This document shows positions 7,257 to 58,170 of a DNA stretch of 64,000 bases, one piece after another. Source of the DNA: PVC group bacterium (GTDB lineage: Bacteria > Verrucomicrobiota > Kiritimatiellia > CAIKKV01 > CAITUY01); NCBI GenBank assembly GCA_945870225.1, contig CAMBRF010000016.1, forward strand, positions 1-64,000, in the 5' to 3' direction. The notes under the pieces are model-generated. The model saw only the letters and a list, made by a program, of their open reading frames with translations. It made no database searches and had not been told where the DNA came from. The first letter of the stretch is position 1. Each line of letters opens with the position of its first letter. The translations under genes were made by a program, and so were the position numbers.

Positions 7257-8504
7257 ATGCAGGCATTTACGTATCGATCCGGTCAGCTGTTTGCCGAGGG
7301 GGTTGCGGTCAAGGATCTCGCCCGGCGCTATGGGACCCCGCTCTATGTCTACAGTCGCAACCATCTCCGCGAGCGGTACGAGGCCATCGCCTCGGCGATG
7401 GCGGAAGTGAAACCGCTGATCTGTTATTCGGTCAAGGCGAACTCCAATGCCGCCGTGCTTAAGACGCTGGCGGCCGCCGGGTCCGGTTTCGACATCGTAT
7501 CCGGGGGCGAGTTGTTCCGGGTGTTGCGCGCGGGCGCTGACGCCTCCAAGGTCGTTTTTGCCGGCGTGGGCAAGACCCGTGAGGAAATTGAGTATGCGCT
7601 CAAGGAACGCATTCGCTTCTTCACGTGTGAATCGGAACCGGAAGCGCGGCGCATCTCCGAATGTGCGAAGCGACTGGGCCTGACCGGGCGCATAGCCTTT
7701 CGTGTGAACCCGGATGTCGATCCCAAGACCCACAAGTACATCAGCACCGGCAAGAAGGAGAACAAGTTCGGGCTGGATCTGGATCGCACGATGCAGGCGT
7801 ATGAAATGGCCGCCGCGCTGCCGAACATCGAGATTGCCGGGTTGCATCTGCACATCGGCTCGCAAATCCTGTCGGCCGATCCGTTCGGTGCCGCGCTGGC
7901 CAAGGTCAAGGACTTCTGCCTGGCGCTCAAGGCGAAGTATCCGTCCTTTACCACGATCGACATCGGCGGCGGATTGGGCATTGACTACAAGCCCGACCAG
8001 CAGTCTCTGGACCCGAAGGTGTTTGCGGCCACGGTGATGCCGTTCCTCCGGGAACTCGGACTCAATGTGGTGATGGAACCGGGGCGCTGCATTGTCGGCA
8101 ACGCCGGCATTCTGGTTTGCACCGTGCAATACGTGAAGGAAAGCTATTTCAAGAAGTTCATTGTGTCGGACGGGGCCATGAATGATCTGATCCGGCCTGC
8201 GCTCTATCAGGCGCATCATGAAGTTTGGGCGGTGTCCGCCACGGATAAACGCGTGCCGGGCGACCTGGTGGGGCCGATCTGTGAATCCGGCGACTTCCTG
8301 GCGGCCGACCGCGACCTGCCCGATGTCGGGGAAGGGGACCTGCTGGCCGTGCTGAGCGCGGGTGCCTACGGGTATGCGATGTCCTCGAATTACAATAGCC
8401 GCCCGCGTGCGGCTGAAGTGATGGTGGATGGCGATAAGGCGTTTGAAATTCGCCGGCGCGAGACATTGGAAGATCTTGTGCGCGGCGAAAGTGATATCCG
8501 ATAG
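7257..8504 (+). CDS. lysA: Diaminopimelate decarboxylase LysA
   Basis: Last step of lysine biosynthesis: decarboxylates meso-diaminopimelate with pyridoxal phosphate in the cytoplasm. The 415-residue protein has the PLP lysine at Lys60 in CYSVKANSN, the phosphate-binding GGGLGIDY at 237-244, EPGR at 274-277, the partner-subunit Cys342 in CESGD and the C-terminal YGYAMSSNYNSRPR at 371-384, all diagnostic of the fold-III decarboxylases. The ATG at 7257 has an AAGGA ribosome site; an upstream in-frame start lacks one. dapA starts 11 bases after the stop, so the two form an operon for diaminopimelate and lysine. Confidence 0.96.
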   Translation: MQAFTYRSGQLFAEGVAVKDLARRYGTPLYVYSRNHLRERYEAIASAMAEVKPLICYSVKANSNAAVLKTLAAAGSGFDIVSGGELFRVLRAGADASKVVFAGVGKTREEIEYALKERIRFFTCESEPEARRISECAKRLGLTGRIAFRVNPDVDPKTHKYISTGKKENKFGLDLDRTMQAYEMAAALPNIEIAGLHLHIGSQILSADPFGAALAKVKDFCLALKAKYPSFTTIDIGGGLGIDYKPDQQSLDPKVFAATVMPFLRELGLNVVMEPGRCIVGNAGILVCTVQYVKESYFKKFIVSDGAMNDLIRPALYQAHHEVWAVSATDKRVPGDLVGPICESGDFLAADRDLPDVGEGDLLAVLSAGAYGYAMSSNYNSRPRAAEVMVDGDKAFEIRRRETLEDLVRGESDIR

Positions 8505-8515
8505 GAGAGACGATT

Positions 8516-9385
8516 ATGTTTGAAGGAGCTTATACAGCACTGGTAACGCCGTTCAACAAGGATGGCAGTGTGGACTATGGAAAGCTGCGCGCCCTGATCG
8601 CCATGCAGATTGAAGGCGGGATTGACGGTATTGTTCCGGTCGGGACAACAGGTGAATCGCCCACGCTCGATTTTGATGAGCATGAAAAGGTCGTCGAGGT
8701 CTCCGTCGAAGCCTCACGTGGCAAACTCAAGGTGATTGCGGGAACCGGGGCCAATTCCACTTCCGAGGCCCTGCAGTTGACGAAGCATGCCTTAAAGGCT
8801 GGCGCTGATGGCACCTTGCAGGTCACGCCTTACTACAACAAGCCCAATCAGGAAGGTCTTTACCGCCATTTCTCGGCTGTGGCCGATCTGGGACTGCCTG
8901 TGGTGTTGTACAACGTACCCGGCCGGTCATCGCGGGAGATTGATGTGGCGACGATCGCCCGTCTGGCCCGGCACCCCAAGGTGGTGGCCGTCAAGGAAGC
9001 GGCCGGCAGCGTGGATCGTGTCAGCCAGATTCTACGCGCCTGCTCGATCACGGTCGTGTCGGGTGATGACTCTCTGACCCTCCCCATGATGGCGGTGGGC
9101 GGGAGCGGGGTCATCAGTGTGGCCTCGAATATCGCGCCGCGCCCGGTGGCGGATCTCGTGCATGCCGCGCAGGCGGGACAGTGGGATAAGGCCCGCGCCC
9201 TGCACATGAAGTATCACCGGTTGTTCACCGACCTCTTTCTGGACACCAACCCGATCCCGATCAAGGCCGCCATGGCCATGGCCGGGATGATAGAGGAGGT
9301 CTACCGCCTGCCGCTTTGTGAAACCAGCGAAGCGATCCGCAAGAAGCTGGCGGAGTGCCTCAAGGAAGTGGGCCTGCTGGGCTGA
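8516..9385 (+). CDS. dapA: 4-hydroxy-tetrahydrodipicolinate synthase DapA
   Basis: Condenses pyruvate with aspartate semialdehyde, the first committed step to diaminopimelate (needed for peptidoglycan) and lysine. The 289-residue TIM barrel has GTTGES at 43-48, the catalytic tyrosine Tyr132 in LYNVPGR and the Schiff-base Lys160 in VVAVKEAAGS, matching the canonical spacing of the E. coli enzyme. Strong ribosome site AGGAG. It follows lysA by 11 bases. Its last 26 bases overlap the 3' end of the convergent FAD oxidoreductase gene, so no terminator fits between them. Confidence 0.96.
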   Translation: MFEGAYTALVTPFNKDGSVDYGKLRALIAMQIEGGIDGIVPVGTTGESPTLDFDEHEKVVEVSVEASRGKLKVIAGTGANSTSEALQLTKHALKAGADGTLQVTPYYNKPNQEGLYRHFSAVADLGLPVVLYNVPGRSSREIDVATIARLARHPKVVAVKEAAGSVDRVSQILRACSITVVSGDDSLTLPMMAVGGSGVISVASNIAPRPVADLVHAAQAGQWDKARALHMKYHRLFTDLFLDTNPIPIKAAMAMAGMIEEVYRLPLCETSEAIRKKLAECLKEVGLLG

Positions 9386-10718
9386 CCAGGGCGGGATCCA
9401 GCAAAACGCCTTGTTTGACCAGTTGGTTCTGCAGGGCCGTGATCGGAAGGGCCTGCACGTTGCCTCCGGTTTGGCGGAGGGCCATGACGGCGGCTGTGCC
9501 GCAGGCTTCACCGGACACCGCGCATCCCGGCAGGGAACGTGTTACCTCCCAAACCGTTGTGTCGGCGGAGAGACACCGCCCTGCGACGAGGAGGTTGGCC
9601 GTCTGAACACCCTGAAGAGCCGAAAACGGAATGGCGTAAACAGGGCCAGCTTGTCGCCAATCGCCAATCAGGCCGATCGTGTCTTCAAACCATTGGTGAA
9701 CGTGGCGTGCCCCGAGTGAAACCGAACCCACCAGGCGCCGGGTCATCCGGAAGCAGGGCAGGGTGGGCGGGGACACCAGTTGGACATCGGCCTCAGGCTT
9801 GCGGGCCCGGATGGATTCCAGCCGCTTGCGGATCAACTCCCGTGTTTCGAGAAGGTGCGCGGTGACCTGATCGGCGTCGTCGCCCCGGAAGAAGGGGCCC
9901 TCGGCCTTTTCCTGTGTTCCCCGGGGATTGTAGCGGTTGGAGAGGCAGTGAAGATTCATGCCATTCTCCTGAAGGGTATAGAACCAGCCGCTGAGCACGT
10001 TGGAATCAAGTGATTCTGTCTGTTCACCGGCCAGAAAGCAGAGGTCGGCGTCACCGGTGGCATCCACCACGGTCCGGCAGGCGATGGCGCTGCGGCCGCT
10101 TTTGTTCTCCACCACCACGTGGCTGATCCGGTCCCCGGCACGGTGCACGGCGCAGAGGCGGGTGTCGTACAGAATCTTGATTCCGGCATCCGTCACCCGC
10201 TTCTCAAGGGCCAGCAGATAGGATGACGGATTGAAGCGTGTCTCGAAACGGGTTTTCCATCGAGTGGCCGCGTCGCCGCCGGGTTGCCAGCAGGTGGGTA
10301 CGCCGATGAACTGGGCAGACTTGTTGTCACGGCCTAAATTGGCGACCGACAGTTTCAGAAGCTCTTCGGCGAGTCCGCCGCTCACCTGACGTCCCCGCCC
10401 GTCACAGAGGGGGAGCCAGACGGTGACATTCCCGAGTGTAGCCAGACCCCCGAGCGCGCAGGTTTTTTCCAGCAGGCATACGTCGGCGCCCAGACGCGCC
10501 GCGGCGAGTGCGGCGGCCACGCCGGCGATTCCGCCGCCAGCCACCAGTACGTCGCAGTCGTTTGACACCGGCAAGGATCGGGAAGGCTCCTCGATCACTC
10601 CGCCCGACGGGTTTACCGTGGATCCTAACAGCATGGACGCACCCACTCCTTCGCTTGTTCCGCTGGGTTCAACGGGACGCCCCACCATACGAAGGTCAAC
10701 GGAAGGAAACAAGGGCAT
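9360..10718 (-). CDS. FAD-dependent oxidoreductase
   Basis: A 452-residue flavoprotein of the FAD_oxidored (PF12831) type. The ADP-binding Rossmann fold lies at about 54-85 with GGGIAG (61-66) and the acidic end LLEK; ATGDADL near 215 and the C-terminal PGCAVSGEACGTAAVMAL cap also fit. Members in this group often sit near carbohydrate or secondary-metabolism genes, but the substrate here cannot be told. About 50 residues precede the FAD fold. No start has a clear ribosome site; the longest ATG is given and downstream ATGs (10688, 10634) are possible. Its 3' end overlaps dapA by 26 bases on the other strand. Confidence 0.8.
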   Translation of the reverse strand: MPLFPSVDLRMVGRPVEPSGTSEGVGASMLLGSTVNPSGGVIEEPSRSLPVSNDCDVLVAGGGIAGVAAALAAARLGADVCLLEKTCALGGLATLGNVTVWLPLCDGRGRQVSGGLAEELLKLSVANLGRDNKSAQFIGVPTCWQPGGDAATRWKTRFETRFNPSSYLLALEKRVTDAGIKILYDTRLCAVHRAGDRISHVVVENKSGRSAIACRTVVDATGDADLCFLAGEQTESLDSNVLSGWFYTLQENGMNLHCLSNRYNPRGTQEKAEGPFFRGDDADQVTAHLLETRELIRKRLESIRARKPEADVQLVSPPTLPCFRMTRRLVGSVSLGARHVHQWFEDTIGLIGDWRQAGPVYAIPFSALQGVQTANLLVAGRCLSADTTVWEVTRSLPGCAVSGEACGTAAVMALRQTGGNVQALPITALQNQLVKQGVLLDPALVSPAGPLP

Positions 10719-42533: not shown

Positions 42534-44180
42534 ATGGATTTCACCTTTTATGTCTGGTGGTTCTTTCGCCATTTTTTTCTATTTCTGGTCGTCCTTTATC
42601 TTATCAGCGGTCTGGATGATCTGGTGATCGATGCCACGTATTACCTGCGGATCTTTTTCCGATCTATCTTCCGGAGAAAGGTTATTCGTCCGGTTACCCG
42701 CGAGCAATTGGCGCAGATCCCGGAGAAGCCGGTTGTGATCATTGTGCCGGCCTGGGATGAGTCCAACGTCATCAGCCGGATGCTGCTGAACACGATCAAC
42801 ACGGTGCTGTACAAGAATTACCATATTTTTGTGGGAACCTATCCCAACGACGAGGCCACGAAGATCGAAGTTGAGAAGATGCGTGAGCTCTATCCCAACA
42901 TCGAGGTTGTGGTGACGCCTTCAGACGGTCCCACGAACAAGGCCGACTGCCTGAACTGGATCTACCAGGGGATCAGGATTTACGAGAAGGATCACAACAA
43001 GAAGTTTGAGATCTTTGTTTTTCATGACGCCGAGGATGTGGTGCATCCGTTGTCGTTGACCTATTACAATTACCTGATGCCCCGGATCCATTTCGTCCAG
43101 GTGCCGGTGTTCCCGCTGGAACAGGCTTGGTGGGGATTCACAACGGGCATGTATATGGATGAATTTGCCGAGAATCACACAAAGGACTTGCGCGTGCGCG
43201 AGCTGTTGGGCCGGGCCATTCCCTCGGCGGGAGTGGGGACCGCGCTGAGCCGTGAGGCGATGGACTACCTTGCCTCGCTGCGGAACAACCAGCTCTTCGA
43301 CATCACCTCGCTGACGGAAGACTATGTCATGGGCTTGAGTCTGCGGGACATGCCCGGGAAGAAGATCCTGCTGCAACAATCGGTCGATCATGCGGTGACG
43401 GTCAAGCGTCGGTGGCACAAGGGGACACGCGAGAGCGTGGTAAACGAACACATCGCCACGCGGGAATTCTTCCCGTCGAATTTCTGGGATGCGGTCCACC
43501 AGAAGTCGCGGTGGATCCTGGGGATTTCCATCCAGGGTTGGAATTACGGGTGGACGAAATCCCTCGGGCTTAATTACTGTCTGTTCCGCGACCGCAAAGC
43601 GGTGGTGACGAATATCATGACCGTGGTCGGGTACCTGGTGGTCGCCTACTGGGGCATCGCGGAACTGGTCGGTTGGCTGGCTCCGGCTCGGGCGGTACCC
43701 CCGCTGGTCGAAGTGGATGAGCCGGTGTTCAAGCTGATCTATGTGGTGATCGGTCTGTTCTTCTGGCGGTTGTTTAATCGCGCCTTTTGCGTCTGGCGCA
43801 TCTATGGGCCGCTTCAGGCGCTGCTGTCCATGCCGCGCATGTTTTACGGAAATCTCCTGAATTTTGCGGCTACCTGCAAGGCCATCCATCGGTATGTCAA
43901 TGCCCGCCTGTCGAAGCAGACCCCCGCCTGGGGGAAGACGAGGCATGCCTACCCGACCGAAGATCAGATGCGCACCTTCCGTCGCAAGCTGGGCGATCTC
44001 CTGCTGGAGCGCCGCATGATCACAGCGGAGCAGTTGCAGGCGGCGCTTGACCGGCAGAAAACCTCGGGCATCAAACTGGGTTCCATTCTGATCGAAATGG
44101 GGGCCTTGAAGGACGAGGACCTGCAACGGATTTTAACCCATCAGCGTAACGGATCGCCGGCCCATCCGGATGGCGCCTGA
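42534..44180 (+). CDS. Family 2 glycosyltransferase with C-terminal MshEN domain
   Basis: A 548-residue inner-membrane glycosyltransferase similar to the NfrB (phage N4 adsorption protein B) group. Helix 7-29 anchors it; the GT-A domain has PAWDESNVI, a DGPTNKADCLN stretch, the DxD-like HDAED near 165, the acceptor SLTED motif and a KRRWHKG site. Two further membrane regions lie near 354-378 and 402-425. Residues about 484-545 form a MshEN-type domain (KLGDLLLERRMITAEQLQAAL then KLGSILIEMGALKDEDL), a known c-di-GMP-binding module. The next gene makes and degrades c-di-GMP, with a 22-base gap to its start. Probably an exopolysaccharide synthase under second-messenger control. Confidence 0.85.
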   Translation: MDFTFYVWWFFRHFFLFLVVLYLISGLDDLVIDATYYLRIFFRSIFRRKVIRPVTREQLAQIPEKPVVIIVPAWDESNVISRMLLNTINTVLYKNYHIFVGTYPNDEATKIEVEKMRELYPNIEVVVTPSDGPTNKADCLNWIYQGIRIYEKDHNKKFEIFVFHDAEDVVHPLSLTYYNYLMPRIHFVQVPVFPLEQAWWGFTTGMYMDEFAENHTKDLRVRELLGRAIPSAGVGTALSREAMDYLASLRNNQLFDITSLTEDYVMGLSLRDMPGKKILLQQSVDHAVTVKRRWHKGTRESVVNEHIATREFFPSNFWDAVHQKSRWILGISIQGWNYGWTKSLGLNYCLFRDRKAVVTNIMTVVGYLVVAYWGIAELVGWLAPARAVPPLVEVDEPVFKLIYVVIGLFFWRLFNRAFCVWRIYGPLQALLSMPRMFYGNLLNFAATCKAIHRYVNARLSKQTPAWGKTRHAYPTEDQMRTFRRKLGDLLLERRMITAEQLQAALDRQKTSGIKLGSILIEMGALKDEDLQRILTHQRNGSPAHPDGA

Positions 44181-44202
44181 ATCGACCATGCGGAGACCAG
44201 AG

Positions 44203-46740
44203 ATGCCGAATACGGTGCAGGATAATCTTGTGGGCGTGCGCGTGCTCGTGGTGGACGACGATGAGGCCATCCGGCTGTTAACCCAGCGTCTTCTTTCCGC
44301 CGAGGGGTGCGCGGTGGAGGTCTCCGACAATGGTCGCGAGGCCCTGCAGATCCTGCTCCGGCAGGACTTCGATGTGGTGCTGGTTGATCTCCGCATGCAT
44401 GAAATGGACGGGATCACCTTCGTCGAGGAGGCCCGCAACATCTGGCCCTGGCTCGGCTTTGTGTTCATGACCGGATATGCCGATGACGTGTCGGTGGAAC
44501 GCGCTGCCTTGCTGGGGGTAACGCGCATCCTGCAGAAGCCGGTGTCGCCCGCTCTCATCCGCAAAACGGTGCTGGAGGAGTTTGTCGACCGCCGGCAGAG
44601 GATGGGTGGGGTCGCGCCCGGCTTTGAACAGCATCAACGGCAGTTGAGGATTCTCGGGCATCTGGGTGAGGCGGCTCTTGCGTCGAGAACCTTTGTGGAA
44701 GCCCTTCGCCAGCTGAGCGAGGGGTTGGGGGATCTGCTTTCCTGTGATCTGGTGGGGCTGCTGGGTTTTGATGACGGCCAGAAGATCATCGTGCTCAACG
44801 TCCATAAGAAGGTGGCCCAGTCCTTCGTGGAAAGCGCCGAAAAGGAGATTATCAACCGTTACGAGGCGTTGAGCGGGAACGTGCTGCCGGCCTCGGAGGT
44901 ACGCGTCCAGGTCGAGGGGGAACCCGTCACCGCCGACGGCGTGGCCCAGCCCGGTCGCATGCTGACCATTCCTCTTCTGGTGGCCAACGAGGTCCAGGGC
45001 CTCTTGTTGCTGGCGGCCTCGACGCGTGACGCGTTCGGTCCGGCGGATGTCTCCTTTGTTTATCATGCCGCCAACCTGCTCTCCGCGGTTTTGTCGGCGG
45101 TGATCCGGATCCGCCAGCTGGCGGTGCATGATACCCTGACCGGCGTCTACAACCGCGCGCATCTTGAGGAGCAATTGGAACGCGCCTGTATGCTGGCGCG
45201 CCGGCATGACCATGATATGGCGGTGGCCATCATGGACCTGGACCATTTTAAAACGGTCAACGACGCGCACGGACATCTCGTGGGGGATCAATTGCTGCGG
45301 GAGTTTGCGGTGATCCTCAGTAAGGTGGCCCGCACCTCGGATATTGTGGCCCGGTATGGTGGTGATGAGTTCGTGGTGGTGCTGCCGCAGACCGATCTGC
45401 CGGCGGGACTGGGACTGGGTGCCCGTATCCTGAGCGCGGTAAGCGATCACGTTTTCTGTGCCGACGGCCTGAGGTTGCGCATGACGGTATCCGTGGGGAT
45501 TGCGACCACCCGGGATATCGGGATCAATGCTCCCGCCACGGAAATGCTCCGCCTGGCGGATGTGGCGTTATATGCGGCCAAGCGCGAGGGGCGCAACCGT
45601 GTGCGCTTGTGGTCATCGGAGCAAACCAGCAAAGATCCGGAGTCTGGCGGGAAGGATGCGCAAGCGGGTTTGGCCCCGGCCGCTGCCCCGGCGAAGGGGC
45701 GGGTCCTCGTGGTGGATGACGATCCCGCTGTGGTGGGCCTTTTGACGACGATGCTGCAGGGGCACGGGATCGCGGTGGATGGCGAGACCTCCCTGGATTC
45801 GGCCATCCGGAGGATATGCCAGTCGGTCGGCGTTTATGACATCGTGCTGACGGATCTGCACATGCCCGGCGGGGGCGGTTTGAAAATTCTCGACGTGATC
45901 CGGGAGACCGACCGTTTGATTCTTCCCATTGTTCTGACCGGATATGCCACCAAGGATAGCGCCGTTGCCAGTTTGCGGCGCGGGGCCTTTGAGTTTATCG
46001 AGAAGCCCATTTTGCGCGAGGAACTTCTCGTGGTGGTGGACCGGGCTCTGGATCACCGCCGGTTACGCATGGAGAATGAGCGCTACCGTTTGCGTCTGGA
46101 GGAAATGGTCCGCCAGAAGAGCGCCGCCCTCGTGGAGGCCTTGGAGGAGGTTAAACACTCCTACGATTTCACGATGCAGGTTCTGGCGGGGTTGTTGGAT
46201 GCACGGGAACATACCACCGCGCAGCACAGCCTGAGGGTGCGCCAAATGGCGATCACCATCGGGACGGCGCTTGGCATGACCGAGGAGGGGCTTAACAAAC
46301 TGGGGCAGGGAGCCCTTCTTCATGACATCGGGAAGATCGCCGTGCCCGATGCCATTCTCCTCAAGCCCGGGCCGCTGACGGAGGAGGAATGGAAGATCAT
46401 GAAAACCCATTCCGAGGTGGGGTACAATATTCTCAAGACCAGTCCCTATCTGGCCGATGTGGCTGAGTTGATTTACGCGCATCAGGAACGCTTTGACGGA
46501 TCAGGCTATCCCCGCGGACTGAAGGGGGATGTCATTCCCTTCGGGGCGCGCATCTTTGCGGTGGTGGATGCGTACGACGCCATGCGCTCGGATCGTGCCT
46601 ATCGCCCGGCCATGAGTGCGGCCCGGGCGGTCGCTGAAATCCAGCGCTGCAGCGGGACCCAGTTCGACCCTGTCGTGGTCAACGCCTTCATGCGGTGCCA
46701 GTTGGATTTGGAGCGGATCGGGAAATGGGCGGAGGTCTGA
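44203..46740 (+). CDS. REC-GAF-GGDEF-REC-HD-GYP c-di-GMP signalling protein
   Basis: An 845-residue hybrid. REC1 spans 13-125 with phospho-Asp62 (VDLRM); a GAF-like region lies at about 160-310; the diguanylate cyclase domain has GGDEF at 386-390 and an intact inhibitory site RTSD at 377-380; REC2 spans about 499-620 with Asp551; and HD-GYP has HDIGK (His707, Asp708) and GYP at 768-770. Both output domains retain catalytic residues, so it may synthesise and hydrolyse c-di-GMP. Start 44203 is chosen by its GGAG site; an upstream ATG would overlap the glycosyltransferase gene by 11 bases. It should tune the MshEN-tailed transferase upstream. Confidence 0.93.
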   Translation: MPNTVQDNLVGVRVLVVDDDEAIRLLTQRLLSAEGCAVEVSDNGREALQILLRQDFDVVLVDLRMHEMDGITFVEEARNIWPWLGFVFMTGYADDVSVERAALLGVTRILQKPVSPALIRKTVLEEFVDRRQRMGGVAPGFEQHQRQLRILGHLGEAALASRTFVEALRQLSEGLGDLLSCDLVGLLGFDDGQKIIVLNVHKKVAQSFVESAEKEIINRYEALSGNVLPASEVRVQVEGEPVTADGVAQPGRMLTIPLLVANEVQGLLLLAASTRDAFGPADVSFVYHAANLLSAVLSAVIRIRQLAVHDTLTGVYNRAHLEEQLERACMLARRHDHDMAVAIMDLDHFKTVNDAHGHLVGDQLLREFAVILSKVARTSDIVARYGGDEFVVVLPQTDLPAGLGLGARILSAVSDHVFCADGLRLRMTVSVGIATTRDIGINAPATEMLRLADVALYAAKREGRNRVRLWSSEQTSKDPESGGKDAQAGLAPAAAPAKGRVLVVDDDPAVVGLLTTMLQGHGIAVDGETSLDSAIRRICQSVGVYDIVLTDLHMPGGGGLKILDVIRETDRLILPIVLTGYATKDSAVASLRRGAFEFIEKPILREELLVVVDRALDHRRLRMENERYRLRLEEMVRQKSAALVEALEEVKHSYDFTMQVLAGLLDAREHTTAQHSLRVRQMAITIGTALGMTEEGLNKLGQGALLHDIGKIAVPDAILLKPGPLTEEEWKIMKTHSEVGYNILKTSPYLADVAELIYAHQERFDGSGYPRGLKGDVIPFGARIFAVVDAYDAMRSDRAYRPAMSAARAVAEIQRCSGTQFDPVVVNAFMRCQLDLERIGKWAEV

Positions 46741-49113
46741 ATGAGGGCGGGTTCGTGCACGATCAAGCCGCCATCCTCTCCGGAAACGGCGGATATCGAA
46801 ACCTCCTCCGACGGATATGCCGCGCGGTTCGCTGGCGCCACCGGGGCCTGGATGCTGTCGGTGCAGGAACAAAGCACCTTGGCCCTGCTGCCTCCTCCCG
46901 GGAAGACCACGATTCTCGATGTGGGCGGCGGACACGGCCAGTTGGCGGTGCCGCTCACCCGGCGCGGCTATGCGGTGACGGTGCTGGGGAGCGATGAGTC
47001 CTGCCGTCTGCGGATCGCCGAAGCGGAGAAGACCGGCGCGTGCCGGTTTGTGACCGGCAACATTCTGGAGTTGCCTTTCCCCGATCGCGCGTTCGATACC
47101 GTGATGTCGTTCCGGCTCCTGACGCACTGCACCGCCTGGCCGACCCTGGTCAAGGACCTCTGCCGCGTGGCGCGCCACTCGGTGATTGTCGATTATCCGG
47201 TCAGCGGAGGACTGCACGCCCTGGCGCCGGCTCTGTTCGATGCCAAAAAGAAACTGGAAGGCAACACCCGCACCTGGCGTCCTTTTAGTCGCGAGGAGGT
47301 GGATCGGGAGTTCCGGAAACACGATTTTATCCCGGATGGTCGGACGCCCCAGTTCTTTCTCCCCATCGTCTTGCATCGTCTTTTGCGGTGCCGGGGCCTG
47401 TCGGCGGCGATGGAACGGGTCTGCCGCGGTCTCGGGTTGACGCGACGATGGGGGTCGCCGGTCATCGTTCGCATGAAAAGGGCCGCCCTGCTGGTGGCCG
47501 CCTGCTGCCTGCTCCCGGCGTCGTGGTCCTGCGCGGATACGGCGGTGGGGGATTGGGGGCACTTCCTTTCGAACAAGGCCAGGGTTTGCCTGAACAATCC
47601 GGACGGCAAGGCTTTTTCCATCACGGTGCATATGATGCGTTGGCCCCTGGAGAAGTGGAACCCGGCTGAGGTTAAAATGGTTCTGACCGGGCCCGACGGA
47701 AAATCCCTGGCGACCGGGGATGGCGAACTGCAGGAGTCGGAATACAGCGTGAACGTACCCGCCGGGTTAAAGGGGGTTTACCGTCTGCAGGCGGAAGGAT
47801 TTGTCTGGATATCTTCTTCGCTCGATGAGTCGGTCGTCTGGACCGGCGATCCGGCAAAGCGGCATGTGTTCCGCGAGCGGTTCGCGCCGGTTTTTCAGGC
47901 CGTGGTCCCCCGCCAGTGGTGGTTCTGGGTGCCGGAGGGAACAACCCGGTTCACCTGCAAGGCCCAGCGGCCCAGCGAATACATGTCGCAACGCGAAGAC
48001 TGGGGAATCTTCATCATCAGCCCCCGCGGGCAGCGGATCCGCGCCCTGTGGGGCCAGCCGCCCATCACCCCGCCGGCCGAGTATCTGCAGGACATGACCG
48101 CGGAGGTTGAAGTGGAGCCCGGTGCCGGCGGCCGGTTCTGGAGCCTGGAGATGCGCTTCGGCGATTCACACAACTACTCCAAGCCGAACCTCTGTTTCGA
48201 GGGTATTCCGCCCTACATCGCCAGAAGTCCGGAGGAATGGTTTGATCCTGAGACCGGGCTAAAGCCTGCTGTGAAGGTGTACGACGACGATCCCTTCATC
48301 CAATCGGCCCGCATCGATCCGTTCATGAAAGAGCACTGGCCCAACCTGCAGCATTTCTCGCCCTGTCCGTCGCTGGGCGACCCCGATGGCGTCATGATTC
48401 TGGGCGATGCGACATTTGCCCTGTGGAATCCGAACGACCGGCCTCTGGGGTTCCGGATTGGAACCTATCTGCCGAGGGAGGCGGGCGGGGTTTCCTCGTT
48501 GGCGCAGGTGACAATTACCGGGCCGGACGGTGGGTCCGTTTTTGAGAAGAAACTTCCGGTCGTGCATATTCATGAAGGGAACGGCCACCCCACCGATTCC
48601 GTCAAAACGGGTAAGGGCGTCAGCCGGGTCACGGTGCAGGGTGCCGACCGCTGGTTGTCGTTCACGTATCCCGCCACGCCCCTGGTGCTGATGGCGAAGG
48701 ACTCTACCAACGGTTGGAAGTTTTTCCGGTTTACGGCCGGGACCACGCGAAACTGGTATTTTCTGGTGCCGGAGGGAACCCGTGAATTCTCCGTGCGCGC
48801 GGCGGCGGATGATCCGGAAGATGTGATGCATTTTGAGGTCTGCGCCCCCGATCGTACGATGGCGCTGATCTATAGCCGCACGGGTGAGGCGACCATCCGG
48901 GTTCCCGCAGGACTGGATGGAAAAATCTGGCATCTCCGCCCGGAGGTGGGAAGCGCCACCCGCATGATCACAAAAGGGGGGGCGGACACCCGCTACCAGG
49001 AAATGCGCCTGACCGTTGACCTCAAGGGGGTGCCCGGTTACCTGGCCCCCACCTGGGAGCAGTGGTTCGACCCGGAAAAACCGGTTTCAGCCATTGATCG
49101 CGCCCGCCGCTGA
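46741..49113 (+). CDS. SAM methyltransferase joined to an exported beta-rich protein
   Basis: A 790-codon frame beginning directly after the preceding stop, with GGAGG upstream. Residues 1-244 are a class I methyltransferase (ILDVGGGHGQLAV at 58-70, a TGNILELPFPD strand) that ends normally at GSPVIVR. Met245 then opens a signal peptide of about 24 residues, followed by beta-rich exported domains with HMMRWPLEKW and later VPEGTREFSV repeats. No stop or frameshift separates the parts. This could be a real type II membrane protein (enzyme inside, beta domains outside), two genes whose stop was lost, or a second protein started at 47473. Function unrecognised; the ribosome site before 47473 is weak. 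Confidence 0.75.
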   Translation: MRAGSCTIKPPSSPETADIETSSDGYAARFAGATGAWMLSVQEQSTLALLPPPGKTTILDVGGGHGQLAVPLTRRGYAVTVLGSDESCRLRIAEAEKTGACRFVTGNILELPFPDRAFDTVMSFRLLTHCTAWPTLVKDLCRVARHSVIVDYPVSGGLHALAPALFDAKKKLEGNTRTWRPFSREEVDREFRKHDFIPDGRTPQFFLPIVLHRLLRCRGLSAAMERVCRGLGLTRRWGSPVIVRMKRAALLVAACCLLPASWSCADTAVGDWGHFLSNKARVCLNNPDGKAFSITVHMMRWPLEKWNPAEVKMVLTGPDGKSLATGDGELQESEYSVNVPAGLKGVYRLQAEGFVWISSSLDESVVWTGDPAKRHVFRERFAPVFQAVVPRQWWFWVPEGTTRFTCKAQRPSEYMSQREDWGIFIISPRGQRIRALWGQPPITPPAEYLQDMTAEVEVEPGAGGRFWSLEMRFGDSHNYSKPNLCFEGIPPYIARSPEEWFDPETGLKPAVKVYDDDPFIQSARIDPFMKEHWPNLQHFSPCPSLGDPDGVMILGDATFALWNPNDRPLGFRIGTYLPREAGGVSSLAQVTITGPDGGSVFEKKLPVVHIHEGNGHPTDSVKTGKGVSRVTVQGADRWLSFTYPATPLVLMAKDSTNGWKFFRFTAGTTRNWYFLVPEGTREFSVRAAADDPEDVMHFEVCAPDRTMALIYSRTGEATIRVPAGLDGKIWHLRPEVGSATRMITKGGADTRYQEMRLTVDLKGVPGYLAPTWEQWFDPEKPVSAIDRARR

Positions 49114-51400: not shown

Positions 51401-53104
51401 ATGTTTGGATCGGACCGCGTTTTAGCGCTTGATATCGGGGCCAGCAAACTGGTGCTGGCCGAGTTCAAGGTTCTCAAGCCGCAGGGCTTGGAACTGTCGA
51501 ACTACATTATCCTGCCCCTCGGGGTGGATATAGACAACACGCCCGATCCCTCGGCTTATATTGTTGCCGGGATTCGCGATGCGTTGCGGGAGAGCGGGAT
51601 CCGGCCCGGCCCGGTGGCGTTGTCCATATCCGGCCAGATGGTTTTCCCCCGTTATGTCAAGTTGCCGCCCGTAACACCGGATAAAATCGCCCAGATCGTC
51701 CGGTACGAGGCCCAGCAGAATGTTCCGTTCCCCATTGATGAAGTCGTGTGGGACTATCAGCTGGTCGCACAGGAGCAGGGCGAACTCAGCGTTCTGCTGG
51801 TGGCGGTGAAGGAGGATCTGGTCAAGAACCTCACCGATTGCGTCGAGGCGGCGGGATTGGACCCCGTGGTGGTGGATGTCTCTCCCCTGGCGCTCTACAA
51901 CACGGTGCGTTACAACTACCCCGAATTATCCGGGTGTACCATGATTCTGGATATGGGCGCCCGTTCCACCAATGTCGTGTTTGTGGAAGGGAACCGGATT
52001 TTCAGCCGCAGTATTCCCGTGGCGGGCGTGGCGGTCACCAAGGACATGATGAAGGAGTTTGAGCTCGCCTATGATGAGGCGGAGCAGCTCAAGGTGGCGC
52101 ATGCGTTTGTGGGATTTGGCGGGGTGTATGAAGGCCATGAGGTGGGTGTGGCGGACCGCACGTCCAAGATCGTGCGGAACGTCATGACGCGCCTGCATGC
52201 TGAGATTGTGCGGACGATCAACTTCTACCGCAGTCAGCAGGGGGGTGGACAGCCTTCAATGGTCCTCCTGTCCGGCGGGTGCTCGATCATCCCGCATGTC
52301 AACACGTTCCTCAAGGAAAAGCTGAAGATGGATGTGGATTACCTCAATCCCTTCCGCAATGTGGCGGTAAGCCCGGATATTTCCGCCGATAAGATTTCCG
52401 AGACGGTCCATGTGCTGGGGGAAGTGGTCGGGCTGGGGTTGCGCCGCTCCTTGTCCTGCCCGGTCGAGATCAACCTGCTGCCGCCCGTGCTGGTGGCGCG
52501 CCGGGTGTTCCGCCGCCGTTTGCCCTTTTTGGGATTGGCGGCGTTGGGCGTGACGCTGATCATGGTGGTCTTTTGGATGTTTCTCCACCGGATGCGGTCC
52601 ATGGCCGAGGAGCGTTTGAGCATGGTGGAGTCGCGCGTTCAGGCCCTCTCCACCCCCAACAATGCCTTAAACGGACTCGCGGCTCAAAAGGGCGTTGTCT
52701 ATGGCAAGGTGACCTCCCTGACCGACTTGATCGAGAAGCGAACCCGCTGGTTGACGATGATCAGCGATCTTCACATTCGGCTGATTGATGGGATGTGGTT
52801 GAGGTTGGTGCAGCCGGTCTATGAGGAAGGGAAGCCTGGCGGACGACTGGTGATTGAAGGCATGAGCTTCAGCGACAAGGTTAGCCACCAGGCCATCAAC
52901 GATTTTGCCGCGGGGTTGAAGGGCATGGGCTACTTTACCGATGACGTGGAGATCAAGAAGATCAAGCCGGCGTCCGGTACTGATTATGTGAATGAGTTTA
53001 CGATCAATGTCAGCATGCGGGATAATAAGCCGGCCGCGCCGCTGCCGGCCAAACCGGCGGATGTGCCGCCGGGTAAACCGGCTGAATCCATAAAGGGGTC
53101 CTGA
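51401..53104 (+). CDS. PilM-like ATPase fused to a PilN-like domain
   Basis: A 567-residue protein. Residues 1-350 are an actin-like, FtsA/PilM-type ATPase (VLALDIGASKLVLAEF at 7-22 and LDMGARSTNVVFVEG near 182-196), equivalent to Akkermansia Amuc_1101. A short segment SCPVEINLLPP leads to one transmembrane helix (about 377-397), and a periplasmic domain of PilN type continues to about 545 before a Pro- and Lys-rich tail. PilM and PilN are separate proteins in most type IV pilus operons, where PilM binds the PilN N-terminus, so the join encodes that interaction in one chain. It follows by 8 bases and precedes a PilO-like gene. Confidence 0.8.
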   Translation: MFGSDRVLALDIGASKLVLAEFKVLKPQGLELSNYIILPLGVDIDNTPDPSAYIVAGIRDALRESGIRPGPVALSISGQMVFPRYVKLPPVTPDKIAQIVRYEAQQNVPFPIDEVVWDYQLVAQEQGELSVLLVAVKEDLVKNLTDCVEAAGLDPVVVDVSPLALYNTVRYNYPELSGCTMILDMGARSTNVVFVEGNRIFSRSIPVAGVAVTKDMMKEFELAYDEAEQLKVAHAFVGFGGVYEGHEVGVADRTSKIVRNVMTRLHAEIVRTINFYRSQQGGGQPSMVLLSGGCSIIPHVNTFLKEKLKMDVDYLNPFRNVAVSPDISADKISETVHVLGEVVGLGLRRSLSCPVEINLLPPVLVARRVFRRRLPFLGLAALGVTLIMVVFWMFLHRMRSMAEERLSMVESRVQALSTPNNALNGLAAQKGVVYGKVTSLTDLIEKRTRWLTMISDLHIRLIDGMWLRLVQPVYEEGKPGGRLVIEGMSFSDKVSHQAINDFAAGLKGMGYFTDDVEIKKIKPASGTDYVNEFTINVSMRDNKPAAPLPAKPADVPPGKPAESIKGS

Positions 53105-53111
53105 GGGGCTT

Positions 53112-54125
53112 ATGCAGTCGCGACGTAATATTCTGATCATGGTCCTGGCGGTGATCATCGTACTGATGTTTCTCGCGGCGGGGGCGCTGGTCTATCGGGA
53201 GTACACGGCCTTTCGTCAGGTTGAAACGGGCCTGCAGAGCAAGTTCAACGAATTAAAAGGGTTGTATCAGCGCGATCCTTTCCCGTCCGAGGCCAACCTT
53301 GCCGTGGAGCGAAAGAATCTCGAGGTGCTGGGTGAGGAACTGGCGGATTTGCTCTCGGTGATGGGGCGCGGTCAGATCGATTCCTTTAATCAGAGTCCGC
53401 CCAAGTTTATGGAACAATTCTGGGAGGCGCGCCGTGATTTGAAAGCCAAAGCCAAGGAGATGGGGGTTGGCTTGGCCGGCGGGGATGACTTCGATTTCGG
53501 GTTTGGCCGGCACATGCCGGGCAACTTGCCTGCACCCCAGGATGTGCCGCGGTTGACCCAGCAGTTGAAAATCACGCAGGTGTTGTGCGGCGTGCTGTAT
53601 AACGCCCGGATTTCAGAGTTACAGGGACTTGGCCGCGAGGAGTTCGAGGTGGACGCCGTGGGCGGGTCCGTGGCCAAACCCGTCGCGACCCGGGGCCGGG
53701 GCCGGGTCGAGGCGGCTTCGATGTCGCTGAATGTGGTCAATTCAAATGCCGGCAAGATCCCGGAGGATCAATTGTTCGGGAATTGGCACTTTGTGCTGCA
53801 GTTTACGGCCAGGGAATCCGCGCTGGTGAGCGTATTGAATGGACTCGCGCGCAGTCCTGTTTTTGCCGTGGTCACCCGGATCGAGGTCGCGGGCGAAGAC
53901 CGGTTGTTTGAACGGGTAAACGAGGAAGGCCGGGCGACGCGCAAAGGCGGCGGGGAAACCGTGGCCAAGCCCGCTGAGGCGGTGGCGGTGGCGAGTGTGC
54001 CCCGGGATCAGCGCGTTGTATGCGGGCGTGAAGTGCCGCTGAAGGTCAGAATGGAACTCAATGTTTTCCAATTCGTCAAGATGCAGATCGCCGCGACGGA
54101 TGAGCCGGCGAAGGGGGCGAAATGA
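53112..54125 (+). CDS. Amuc_1100-like (PilO-like) bitopic protein
   Basis: A 337-residue inner-membrane protein: transmembrane helix 8-28, then a heptad-like helical segment (about 30-75, EYTAFRQVETGLQSKFNELK) and a periplasmic alpha/beta domain with an insertion rich in Gly and Ala (about 185-200). The topology matches PilO and the third gene of the Akkermansia cluster (Amuc_1100), a pilus-associated protein whose fold is PilO-like. It lies 7 bases after the PilM/PilN gene, and its last four bases overlap the next gene's start. Role: stabilises the inner-membrane platform. Confidence 0.65.
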   Translation: MQSRRNILIMVLAVIIVLMFLAAGALVYREYTAFRQVETGLQSKFNELKGLYQRDPFPSEANLAVERKNLEVLGEELADLLSVMGRGQIDSFNQSPPKFMEQFWEARRDLKAKAKEMGVGLAGGDDFDFGFGRHMPGNLPAPQDVPRLTQQLKITQVLCGVLYNARISELQGLGREEFEVDAVGGSVAKPVATRGRGRVEAASMSLNVVNSNAGKIPEDQLFGNWHFVLQFTARESALVSVLNGLARSPVFAVVTRIEVAGEDRLFERVNEEGRATRKGGGETVAKPAEAVAVASVPRDQRVVCGREVPLKVRMELNVFQFVKMQIAATDEPAKGAK

Positions 54126-55120
54126 CGGCGGCGGGAATCAGTCTCTGGCTCAAGAAAGTTTACGATAAACTGGCGGCGGCGGCGGTCCTGCTCGTTCTCG
54201 TGATTTCATTGTTCATGCTGGCCGTACAGGCGCAGTCGCTCAAGCAGCAGCAATCCCGGTTTGATGGCGAACTACAGCGCCAGACGCCTCTCCATGCTCT
54301 GGCGCAGCCGACGGATCGGACTCTTTTCGATATGTCGCGCCTGGCGCTGATCGATCCGTCCCAAATTGGTGAATGGCCGCTCCGCCTGATGGTTCCTGAA
54401 CTCAGGGTGCGCTGCACCGAATGCCAGCGCCCCATTCCTTATGCCGCCACCGTCTGTTCTTTTTGCAAGGCCGAGCAGGGTCCGGATGTGGCCCCGGACC
54501 CTTTTAAGGATTGGCTGAAAAAGAATAATCTCAACACGCTGGACGCCGAGATCGGCAGTGCCGATGCCGATAACGACGGCTTCACCAATCGTGAGGAATT
54601 TGACTTTAAGACCGACCCCAACCAGGCCACGAACCACCCGCCCGCCCTGGCCAAGGTGACCGTCCAGAGTATTCAGCCGATCTCCTTCCGGCTCATCTTC
54701 AAGAGTGTCAGCAAGATGCCAGAGGGGAAGAACCTCTTCCAGATCAACCTGCGCTCCAACGACAAGACCTGGTGGAAGTCGATCGGGGAAGAGGTGGAGG
54801 GCTTTAAGCTCATCACGTATGATGAGAAGGGCCCGGAGGGTCAGGTATTAACGCTTCAACGCGGCGACAAGAAGATCCCCCTGATCAAAGGGCGGGAGGT
54901 TCCGCGTAACGAGTACTTGATCACCCTGAACTCCAAGCTCGATGGGGGCGCCCTGCCGCCTGTCAGGGTGGATGAGGAGTTTACCGTGAAGGGGGTCCAG
55001 TACAGGGTCAAAACAGTTGACATCAGCAGCAACACTGTACTAATACACGACCCTTCGCGCGATATGGATGTGTTGATCAGCGGCCAGGTGTCGGGACCGA
55101 AATCGGTACCCCAGCCCTGA
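54122..55120 (+). CDS. Amuc_1099-like protein with zinc ribbon and calcium loop
   Basis: A 332-residue bitopic protein: transmembrane helix about 18-37, a zinc-ribbon-like set Cys98, Cys101, Cys112 and Cys115 (CTECQ ... CSFCK), then a calcium-loop-like DADNDGFTNREEF at 148-160, followed by a beta-rich periplasmic domain. The pairing of a zinc ribbon with a thrombospondin-type or EF-hand-like loop is unusual in a pilus-type operon. It overlaps the preceding gene by four bases (ATGA) and lies 56 bases before the secretin. Named from its position, equivalent to Amuc_1099. Confidence 0.65.
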   Translation: MTAAGISLWLKKVYDKLAAAAVLLVLVISLFMLAVQAQSLKQQQSRFDGELQRQTPLHALAQPTDRTLFDMSRLALIDPSQIGEWPLRLMVPELRVRCTECQRPIPYAATVCSFCKAEQGPDVAPDPFKDWLKKNNLNTLDAEIGSADADNDGFTNREEFDFKTDPNQATNHPPALAKVTVQSIQPISFRLIFKSVSKMPEGKNLFQINLRSNDKTWWKSIGEEVEGFKLITYDEKGPEGQVLTLQRGDKKIPLIKGREVPRNEYLITLNSKLDGGALPPVRVDEEFTVKGVQYRVKTVDISSNTVLIHDPSRDMDVLISGQVSGPKSVPQP

Positions 55121-55176
55121 CGGGGGCATGGTACATCCGTTTTAAGGCGAAAGTTCTTTTTAAAGAGAGGGCCTAT

Positions 55177-58170
55177 ATGAGACTGCACGGCGTGATATTC
55201 TTTGTGCTGGCGCTTTTGTTGGCGACCAGCGGTACGTCCGTTTTCGCGCAAGACGCGACGGTCGAAGAACTTAAGCAGGAAATGAAAACCCCGGTTGAAA
55301 CCAATCAGCCCGTGGTAAAAGAACCGGCCGTCGAGGTCGCGGCCCCCGCCGCTGCCGAGCCGAAAGTAGAGGCCGTGATCGAGGAATTGGCCCCGGCTCC
55401 TGCCGCCGTAGCTGCTCCGGCTGAAAAGCCCGCTGTTGCCGAACCGGCAATCGAGGAATTGGCCCCCGCCCCCGCCGCCGTGGCGGCCCCGGTTGAAAAG
55501 CCCGCTGTTGCCGAACCAGCAATCGAGGAATTGGCCCCCGCCCCCGCCGCCAAACCTGCGGACGCGGCGATTGAGGAATTGGCCCCGGTCGCGCAACCGG
55601 CGGCGGAAGCGCCCAAGGTTGAGGCAGCTGTCCCTGCGGCGCCCGCAGCGGATCAAGCGGCGGTTGAGGCCGCCGTTCCTGTCGTTGCCCCGGCGAAGGG
55701 TTCAGATGCCGATGTTGAGGCCATGCTGGGTCTCCCCAAAAGAGTTGTGCCTGAGGAGGCGGCAAAACAGTTGGGATCGCCGCAGCGTACGGAGCAGGGG
55801 AAACGGATTGCCCAGGATGAACAAGCCCGTCGGCAGGCCCGCGAGATGGAGGGGCGCAAGAGTGTGGAGTTGGCCGAACGCGCCTGGAAGGCTGGCGACT
55901 ATGCGCTAGCTCTGAGTCATTACCGCAGCGTGATTGAAAAACTGCCCGCCATCGGGCCCAACATGGCCGATCGCAAACGCGCCATGGATCGCATTCCGCA
56001 GTGCGAGTATCAGTCCCTCCTGACCCTCGTCAAGCTGGGCAAGGGAGACGAAGCCCTGACCAAAGGCAAGGAAGCCCTTGCCAAGACTCCTGATAATCTG
56101 GCGATTTCCAAACTGGTGAGGAAGCTTGAGGAGAAGAACGTACCCCCCCCGCCGGTGAATGGGAAGCTGGGTCAGACCCAGGAAAACACCGAGGCGCGGG
56201 ATCAGATGCATATTGGAAAGCAGCAGATGGCCGATCGTGACTTCGAGAAGGCCCGCGCCAGCTTTGAATCCGTATTGGCCCTTGATCCGGAAAATAATGA
56301 AGCGATGCGCTACTTGAAGGAACTGGGCGACCGTAATTATATCGTCAATTCGGTCGAGCGCAATGCCACGGCGGCCAAAATGTCTGCCCAAGTCCGGGAT
56401 ACCTGGAACCCCAAGTACAGGGTTCTCAAGGGCGTGGAAGAAAAGCCGGAGGGTCAGAAGCCGCCGCCACCCAGCTCCTCGATTCTGAAGAAGATGGGCG
56501 AGATCGTCATCCCCGAGATCGAGTTCCGCCAGGCTAATATCAACGACGTGGTCGGTTTCCTGAATAAGGCCAGCGTGGATGGCGACAAGAACGAGCAGGA
56601 TCCTGCGAAAAAGGGTGTGAATATCATCCTGAACCTTAACGCCGGTGGCGCTGTCGCGCCACCCGCCGCCGCGGCAAAGCCCGCGGGCGATGATGTCTTT
56701 GGCGCGGCTCCGGCGCCCGCCGGCGGGGCGGGAGGACAGGCCATTGAAATCACCTTCACCGCCCGTTATATCTCCCTGTTGTCCGCGCTGAAGATCATCA
56801 CCTCCGTGGCTGGGCTAAAGTACCGCGTGGACAACAATATCGTGATGATTGTTCCAAACGATTTCGATCCCTCCGAGATGGAAATCCGGATGTATTCCGT
56901 TGAGCCGACGTTTGTGGAGCGTATCCGGGAGGCAAGTTCGGCCATGCCGCGGGCTCCCGGCAGTATGGGTGGACGCGAGTTGACGGGCATACAGAACGAA
57001 GCGATCGGGAACACGGTTCCGGATTTGAAGGAGTATTTCGAGAAGATGGGCGTGAAGTTCCCGACCGGGTCCTCCATCACCTACAACTCGGCGATCGGCA
57101 AGGTTATTGTCGGCAATACGGCGGACAATCTGGCCACCTTCGAGAAGATTCTGCCGGAACTGAATGTCGTGCCGAAACAGGTTGAAATCGAGGCGCGGTT
57201 TGTTGAAGTCAATGAAACGGATCTTCAGGAAATCGGCCTGGAGTGGCTGCTGAATGACGCCTGGGAAATCGCCAGCAAGAAGGGCGGGGCCTTTGCTCCG
57301 CTCGGGTCGACCGAGCGCATTCAGATGGGCGCGAACGGGTCCAGCGGCGGCTTTACCAAGGGCTTGCGGTTCTGGGGGCAGGATGGCAGCGGCACCGAGA
57401 ATGCACTGGCCGGCGGGCAGGGCACCATGGGCAAGCTGTTATCGGTGTCGAGTGTGCTCACCAATCCCGAGTTGACCATGGTGTTGCACCTGCTTCAGCA
57501 GAACGGCAATGCCGATCTGCTCTCGGCTCCGAAGGTGACCACCCGGTCGGGCGCTGAAGCGACCATCCGGGTCGTGACAGAGTACATCTATCCCACCACG
57601 TTCGAGGTGCAGGGCGGGACCCTCCAGGGGAATAATGCGGGAACCGGGGCGGCCGCCATTCAGGAAACGACCGTCGTGCCGCAGGATTTTGCCACCCGCG
57701 AGGTGGGCGTCATCCTGACCGTTCTGCCTGAGGTCAGTCCGGATGGCAACATGATCAACCTGACGATGACCCCGCAGGTGGTGACTGAGCCGACGTGGTA
57801 TCAATACGGGTCGACGATTCGCCGCGCGGATGGTTCGGAGTCGGTTCTGAACATGCCGCAGCCGTTCTTCCATGTGCGGTCGTTGAGCACACAGATTTCG
57901 ATCTACGACGGGGCAACGGTCGTCATGGGCGGCTTGATCACGGAAGACCTGAGGAAGGTCAACGACAAGATTCCTGTCCTGGGCGACATCCCGCTCCTGG
58001 GAGCCTTGTTCCGGAGCAAGTCTGAGCGCAGCATCAAGAAGAACCTCCTGATCTTCGTGTCAGCGAAGCTGGTGGATCCCGCTGGGCGTCTGATTCGTAA
58101 TCCGGATGCCGAGGCCGCTCCGGCGCTCAAGGTTCCGGTGCCCGGGGCAACGCCTCCGCCCCCGAAATGA
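55177..58170 (+). CDS. Type II/IV secretin, PilQ/GspD-like (Amuc_1098-like)
   Basis: A 997-residue outer-membrane channel protein. Signal peptide 1-25 (ending VFA before Q), a long Ala-, Pro- and Glu-rich low-complexity region (about 40-175, with 24-residue repeats), TPR-like helices (AERAWKAGDYALALSHYRS near 229 and ARDQMHIGKQQMADRDFEKAR near 345), N-type domains, then the secretin core with VMGGLITEDLRKV near 918 and PVLGDIPLLGALF, its family signature. It forms the ring through which a pilus or substrate exits. Last gene of the five; the ribosome site is purine-rich (AGAGAGG). The repeats are unusually long for a secretin N-terminus. Confidence 0.9.
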   Translation: MRLHGVIFFVLALLLATSGTSVFAQDATVEELKQEMKTPVETNQPVVKEPAVEVAAPAAAEPKVEAVIEELAPAPAAVAAPAEKPAVAEPAIEELAPAPAAVAAPVEKPAVAEPAIEELAPAPAAKPADAAIEELAPVAQPAAEAPKVEAAVPAAPAADQAAVEAAVPVVAPAKGSDADVEAMLGLPKRVVPEEAAKQLGSPQRTEQGKRIAQDEQARRQAREMEGRKSVELAERAWKAGDYALALSHYRSVIEKLPAIGPNMADRKRAMDRIPQCEYQSLLTLVKLGKGDEALTKGKEALAKTPDNLAISKLVRKLEEKNVPPPPVNGKLGQTQENTEARDQMHIGKQQMADRDFEKARASFESVLALDPENNEAMRYLKELGDRNYIVNSVERNATAAKMSAQVRDTWNPKYRVLKGVEEKPEGQKPPPPSSSILKKMGEIVIPEIEFRQANINDVVGFLNKASVDGDKNEQDPAKKGVNIILNLNAGGAVAPPAAAAKPAGDDVFGAAPAPAGGAGGQAIEITFTARYISLLSALKIITSVAGLKYRVDNNIVMIVPNDFDPSEMEIRMYSVEPTFVERIREASSAMPRAPGSMGGRELTGIQNEAIGNTVPDLKEYFEKMGVKFPTGSSITYNSAIGKVIVGNTADNLATFEKILPELNVVPKQVEIEARFVEVNETDLQEIGLEWLLNDAWEIASKKGGAFAPLGSTERIQMGANGSSGGFTKGLRFWGQDGSGTENALAGGQGTMGKLLSVSSVLTNPELTMVLHLLQQNGNADLLSAPKVTTRSGAEATIRVVTEYIYPTTFEVQGGTLQGNNAGTGAAAIQETTVVPQDFATREVGVILTVLPEVSPDGNMINLTMTPQVVTEPTWYQYGSTIRRADGSESVLNMPQPFFHVRSLSTQISIYDGATVVMGGLITEDLRKVNDKIPVLGDIPLLGALFRSKSERSIKKNLLIFVSAKLVDPAGRLIRNPDAEAAPALKVPVPGATPPPPK
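55381..55572 (+). repeat. 72-bp tandem coding repeats in the secretin
   Basis: Units of 24 codons (EELAP ... AEPAI) start at 55381, 55453 and 55525, with a shorter, diverged unit beginning near 55573. The first two full units are nearly identical. Confidence 0.8.

Follow-up and report, generated by a model that had tools for sequence, protein, structure and literature searches.

A short NfrB-type glycosyltransferase with a predicted c-di-GMP-sensing tail beside a GGDEF/HD-GYP gene in a Kiritimatiellia genome

The Nfr system of E. coli is among the closest known counterparts of the locus analyzed here and has been described experimentally. MshEN domains joined to glycosyltransferases have been on record since 2016 (PMC5013675), and in 2021 E. 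coli NfrB was shown to be an exopolysaccharide synthase that needs c-di-GMP binding by its MshEN domain for function (PMC8669469, PMC8669472). NfrB binds c-di-GMP via this domain with a Kd of 1.0 μM (PMC8669469), and isolated MshEN_N binds it with a KD of 0.35 μM (PMC5013675). In the same system, NfrA is the pore, YbcH is an accessory protein, WecB supplies UDP-ManNAc, and DgcJ is the cyclase that specifically serves and directly contacts NfrB (PMC8669469, PMC8669472). NfrB homologues occur chiefly in Proteobacteria, and GGDEF genes adjoin nfr operons in pseudomonads (PMC8669469).

In the window, the 64-kb stretch of contig CAMBRF010000016.1 (assembly GCA_945870225.1) that was analyzed, a short nfrB-type gene is followed by a GGDEF/HD-GYP gene. 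We consider it probable that they belong to a reduced, rearranged Nfr exopolysaccharide system that receives c-di-GMP from the adjacent bifunctional enzyme. A preliminary description of this DNA had proposed such control and called it new or rarely described. Of the readings considered, this mechanism fits best, and it has been demonstrated by experiment for a homologue, E. coli NfrB, but the novelty fails: MshEN on a glycosyltransferase was rejected as a new arrangement because of the 2016 and 2021 reports (PMC5013675, PMC8669469, PMC8669472).

The synthase and its MshEN_N tail

The ORFs of both genes were found head to tail on the + strand. The first (42534-44180, +) codes for a short NfrB-type membrane glycosyltransferase of 548 aa, as judged from the ORF, profile matches, a homologue alignment, and a structure model. 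Its product contains a GT2 domain (PF13641, 112.8 bits in the profile search), with core motifs at D138, D165xE167-D168, TED 261-263, and QxxRW 323-327; D165, E262-D263, Q323, R326, and W327 are invariant across the 32 homologues aligned with it. Transmembrane helices lie at about 10-32, 357-380, and 400-420, so the processive GT2 motifs (DxD, TED, QxxRW) and membrane helices of the NfrB family are all present. The NfrB-family assignment is supported by the NCBIfam glycosyltransferase match PRK15489 (557 bits, cut-off 537), by comparison with E. coli NfrB, to which the product is 38% identical and whose glycosyltransferase motifs it shares in full, and by an AlphaFold model (mean pLDDT 89) whose underlying alignment contained no E. 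coli row. The modeled fold resembles those of hyaluronan synthases and BcsA, the c-di-GMP complex of BcsA included, with cellulose synthase structures ranking top. PRK14716.1-3 was also passed (431, cut-off 409). These results indicate that the product is a BcsA/NfrB-like processive family-2 glycosyltransferase. It scored 478 bits against the NCBIfam NfrB equivalog PRK11234, below the cut-off of 1170, and the complete long relatives likewise scored only 506-551 bits. Since this cut-off is not reached, the product may differ, which weakens the case for an Nfr system.

The tail of the protein (residues 485-537; 43986-44144, +) is an MshEN_N c-di-GMP-binding motif pair. The NCBIfam MshE-type motif NF053729 covers all 53 of its positions there with 62.6 bits (cut-off 38), and the tail is also matched by the PDB sequences of MshE, PilB, and PilF. 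Together with the GT2 match, this bears out the earlier description of a membrane glycosyltransferase with an MshEN-like tail. The Pfam MshEN model did not report the tail in the profile search; absence of the domain was nevertheless rejected, as this silence reflects model sensitivity and the NCBIfam motif detects the tail. The AlphaFold model predicts four short helices for it, and the protein ends 11 residues past MshEN_N.

At the ligand positions of MshE (taken from PMC5013675), the tail has K485, L486, G487, R494, L501, L505, and Q508 in the first motif and K514, L515, G516, G523, L530, L534, and Q537 in the second. Exact agreement is therefore found at 11 of the 14 positions (Leu10, Gly11, Leu25, Leu29, Gln32, Leu39, Gly40, Gly47, Leu54, Leu58, and Gln61 of MshE). 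The departures are Lys for Arg9 and Arg38, which are conservative, and Arg for Gly18, so that the pattern of two RLGxx(L/V/I)(L/V/I)xxG...LxxxLxxQ motifs five residues apart is followed except at Gly18 (R) and in the two R-to-K changes. The missing Gly of the first motif had been a concern earlier. Its absence is real, but it is not disqualifying: E. coli NfrB, a c-di-GMP binder, has Gln at this position, and Gly18 is absent from 29 of 33 NfrB homologues in the alignment and present in the other 4. A loss of binding through the missing Gly was rejected as an argument for this reason, and the alignment therefore does not bring the refutation through lost key residues that the preliminary description had allowed for. 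This MshEN_N tail is predicted to sense c-di-GMP. By analogy with the isolated MshEN_N, which binds the ligand at submicromolar KD (PMC5013675), a short tail with a single MshEN_N can suffice for function.

The adjacent GGDEF/HD-GYP enzyme

The second gene (44203-46740, +) codes for a REC-GAF-GGDEF-REC-HD-GYP protein, a putative diguanylate cyclase and phosphodiesterase of 845 aa by profile and alignment. The ORF listing gave an alternative start at ATG 44170, which yields 856 aa and an 11 nt overlap with nfrB. ATG 44203 seems the more likely start because the protein of the sister genome (G003) aligns from there, and it leaves a 22-nt gap after nfrB. The first REC domain keeps DD, D, and K, and is followed by GAF, the GGDEF domain (45121-45600, +) with an RTSD inhibitory site five residues upstream of an intact GGDEF, the second REC, and the HD-GYP domain (46180-46677, +) with intact HDIGK and HQERFDGSGYP motifs. 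This agrees with the preliminary description of an adjacent protein keeping both active sites and RTSD. The enzyme probably makes and degrades c-di-GMP.

Its GGDEF domain is the sole intact one of three in the assembly, as the other two read GHSEF and SADRL at the signature. Family searches of this 84%-complete, metagenome-type assembly, on which the genome-wide domain counts rest, found no EAL domain and no HD-GYP domain other than that at 46180-46677. Unless further such domains lie in the 16% of the genome that is missing, the enzyme would represent the entire c-di-GMP metabolism of the cell. The genome also offers a natural test of c-di-GMP signaling where the only cyclase and the only phosphodiesterase appear to be parts of one protein. 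The same searches detected six MshEN proteins and three PilZ proteins elsewhere in the assembly. One of the GGDEF-like proteins (G000:C19:17000-21500; L115:1332-2915, -) is a 527-aa Hpt/REC/GGDEF-like/REC protein that keeps RxxD (RATD) and has GHSEF for GGDEF; it may be a receptor for c-di-GMP and not a cyclase. In addition, on contig G000:C41 a UDP-GlcNAc 2-epimerase gene (7797-8834) adjoins a PilZ-domain gene (9086-9400), and the region 7797-9400 is a possible further c-di-GMP-linked polysaccharide locus.

Each of the nine members of the window's family that were sampled has an orthologue of the GGDEF/HD-GYP enzyme, as do 28 of the 58 related genomes overall, and a dedicated cyclase that arose with NfrB was rejected for this reason. 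In 22 of the 58 genomes, including all six nfr-less members of the window's family, the orthologue occurs without nfr genes; at seven such loci inspected by eye, its neighbors were ClpB, regulators and kinases, or unrelated genes. On this distribution across genomes, the enzyme is best regarded as an old general enzyme, not one evolved for NfrB.

nfr genes in relatives and in the window's genome

The nfrB gene was found in 6 of the 58 related genomes, and NfrA_C in exactly those six. The orthologue of the GGDEF/HD-GYP gene lies with nfr genes in five of the six. In neighborhoods drawn up by simply selecting ORFs and identifying them with Pfam or phmmer, the order is nfrB-nfrA-DUF4434-REC/GGDEF/REC/HD-GYP in G026 and the same in G043, with wecB in addition, DUF4434 being the family to which E. 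coli YbcH belongs. In G002, one contig carries nfrA-DUF4434-REC/GGDEF/HD-GYP and another ends in a frameshifted nfrB (G002:C89; L014:1501-2205 and L011:1501-2427); the frameshift splits the gene near residue 233 and marks either a pseudogene or an assembly error. In two named Kiritimatiellae genomes, the order is GGDEF/HD-GYP-wecB-nfrB-nfrA-DUF4434, and wecB, nfrA, and ybcH were frequent neighbors in a named survey of 80 loci. The co-occurrence of nfrB and nfrA in the same six genomes and the fuller operons of relatives support reading the window locus as part of an Nfr system, which is thereby extended to a lineage that, judging from its relatives, probably belongs to Kiritimatiellia (Verrucomicrobiota). 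The gene order in relatives also independently backs the E. coli model, in that the genes for synthase, pore, YbcH, WecB, and c-di-GMP enzyme stay clustered. In two Granulicella loci (L083:7980-11324 and L092:7983-11336) and a gammaproteobacterial one (L044:6663-9443), one ORF gives matches to WecB as well as to the NfrB glycosyltransferase, which suggests a synthase-epimerase fusion.

The window and the sister genome differ from this pattern. In both, NfrB stops after the first MshEN_N, lacking an MshEN_C-like and further C-terminal region, and the GGDEF/HD-GYP gene is directly next; the NfrB proteins of other relatives run to 672-724 aa. The two short proteins share 70% identity and are sisters in the tree (support 100/99). 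Since the long G002 form is the next branch (100/99), the short form is, on this tree, derived. Short NfrBs ending after MshEN_N were also seen at one Elusimicrobia and one Kordiimonas locus. G003 additionally carries a long nfrB followed by nfrA elsewhere in its genome. In the window's genome, nfrA and ybcH are intact and lie on contig C1, unlinked to nfrB; tblastn found no nfrB remnant beside the relocated nfrA there, and this NfrA groups as sister with the NfrA of G003 (100/100). We class the window locus as a lineage-specific variant of the Nfr system; with only the first MshEN_N left, it can serve as a natural test of which tail regions NfrB requires.

An Rfam search of the 64-kb window returned two tRNAs only, and a promoter scan performed no better than shuffles. 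Downstream, a 790-aa ORF (46741-49113) combines a methyltransferase domain with a second part that opens with a signal-peptide-like stretch (VRMKRAALLVAACCLLPASWSC) and may represent two genes fused or read together. Further on (51401-58170), a PilM-like gene is followed by pilN-, pilO-, and secretin-like genes, named from reading the sequences only; this suggests a type IV pilus or type II secretion cluster near nfrB, a proximity of interest given that the genome encodes MshEN ATPases at other loci.

Proposed mechanism, alternatives, and comparison with known systems

What was directly seen are the genes, their motifs, the fuller operons of relatives, the truncation common to G003, and the displacement of nfrA-ybcH onto a different contig; the steps beyond the sequence motifs are inferred from E. 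coli NfrB. The NfrB homologue would polymerize a sugar across the inner membrane, by analogy N-acetylmannosamine from UDP-ManNAc. Binding of c-di-GMP at the C-terminal MshEN_N, which switches on E. coli NfrB, would do so here as well. Judging from its domains, the adjacent response regulator would supply c-di-GMP through its GGDEF domain, with feedback inhibition at RTSD, and would degrade it through HD-GYP, while phosphorylation of the two REC domains, together with the GAF domain, would set the balance between synthesis and breakdown. The polymer would leave through the NfrA encoded on C1.

The truncation and the unlinked pore could mark decay of the system, which weakens this explanation. 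The short NfrB would then be a remnant of an Nfr operon being lost, with selection left only on the GGDEF/HD-GYP gene, and the restriction of nfrB to so few relatives, the loss of its C-terminal half, the pore genes lying elsewhere, and the frameshifted G002 copy would all fit. We regard this as improbable, since the reading frame is intact with all catalytic and most ligand residues retained, nfrA and ybcH are intact in the same genome, and G003 has the same short form with the same partner, which argues for long maintenance. It is slightly harder still to believe that the tail is structural or serves another ligand, leaving the synthase outside c-di-GMP control. Arg at Gly18 and Lys at Arg9 and Arg38 would agree with this, but E. 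coli NfrB varies at these positions too and yet binds c-di-GMP (PMC8669469), and the tail retains most ligand positions of MshE exactly and scores above the motif cut-off.

The occurrence of the enzyme gene in many nfr-less genomes also weakens the proposed explanation, and it raises the question of whether the two genes are coincidental neighbors, with NfrB reading whole-cell c-di-GMP and the adjacency having no local meaning. Members of the family keep the enzyme as a core gene even where NfrB is absent, it is the sole intact cyclase in the assembly, so there would be no competing pool to isolate from, and its product could be used by the MshEN and PilZ proteins encoded elsewhere. This alternative is possible though unlikely, as the same orthologue stands in nfr clusters of several lineages with differing gene orders. 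Because those three PilZ and six MshEN proteins would share the c-di-GMP, however, "local" signaling remains a proposal. A bolder version of the reduced Nfr system, in which one bifunctional response regulator accounts for all c-di-GMP turnover in this lineage and shares a transcript with a minimal single-MshEN_N synthase, the pore being encoded elsewhere or missing, seems doubtful to us. If true, the c-di-GMP circuit would be minimal by nature, and the distinction between local and global signaling would collapse.

Taken together, the locus resembles the E. coli NfrB-NfrA-YbcH/DgcJ/WecB system in its GT2 synthase with a C-terminal MshEN and the same glycosyltransferase motifs, in its cyclase partner, and in having a TPR outer-membrane pore NfrA and a YbcH/DUF4434 protein in the genome. 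In contrast to the 745-aa E. coli NfrB, the synthase here ends after the first MshEN_N, and its pore genes are unlinked. A response regulator that is soluble and bifunctional (GGDEF/HD-GYP) takes the place of the membrane cyclase DgcJ. The pseudomonad nfr operons with a downstream GGDEF gene (PMC8669469) likewise associate a cyclase gene with nfrB; however, they are reported to hold the full nfrBA-ybcH set plus cyclase, and here nfrB and the cyclase/phosphodiesterase gene stand together alone. The MshEN domains of MshE, PilB, and PilF share the 53-residue two-motif c-di-GMP site, but the tail here is carried by a synthase instead of an ATPase, has Arg at Gly18, and lacks MshEN_C. Cellulose synthase BcsA, the best fold match of the model, is similarly a c-di-GMP-activated membrane GT2, as predicted here, but its sensor is PilZ, whereas the putative sensor of the short NfrB is MshEN.
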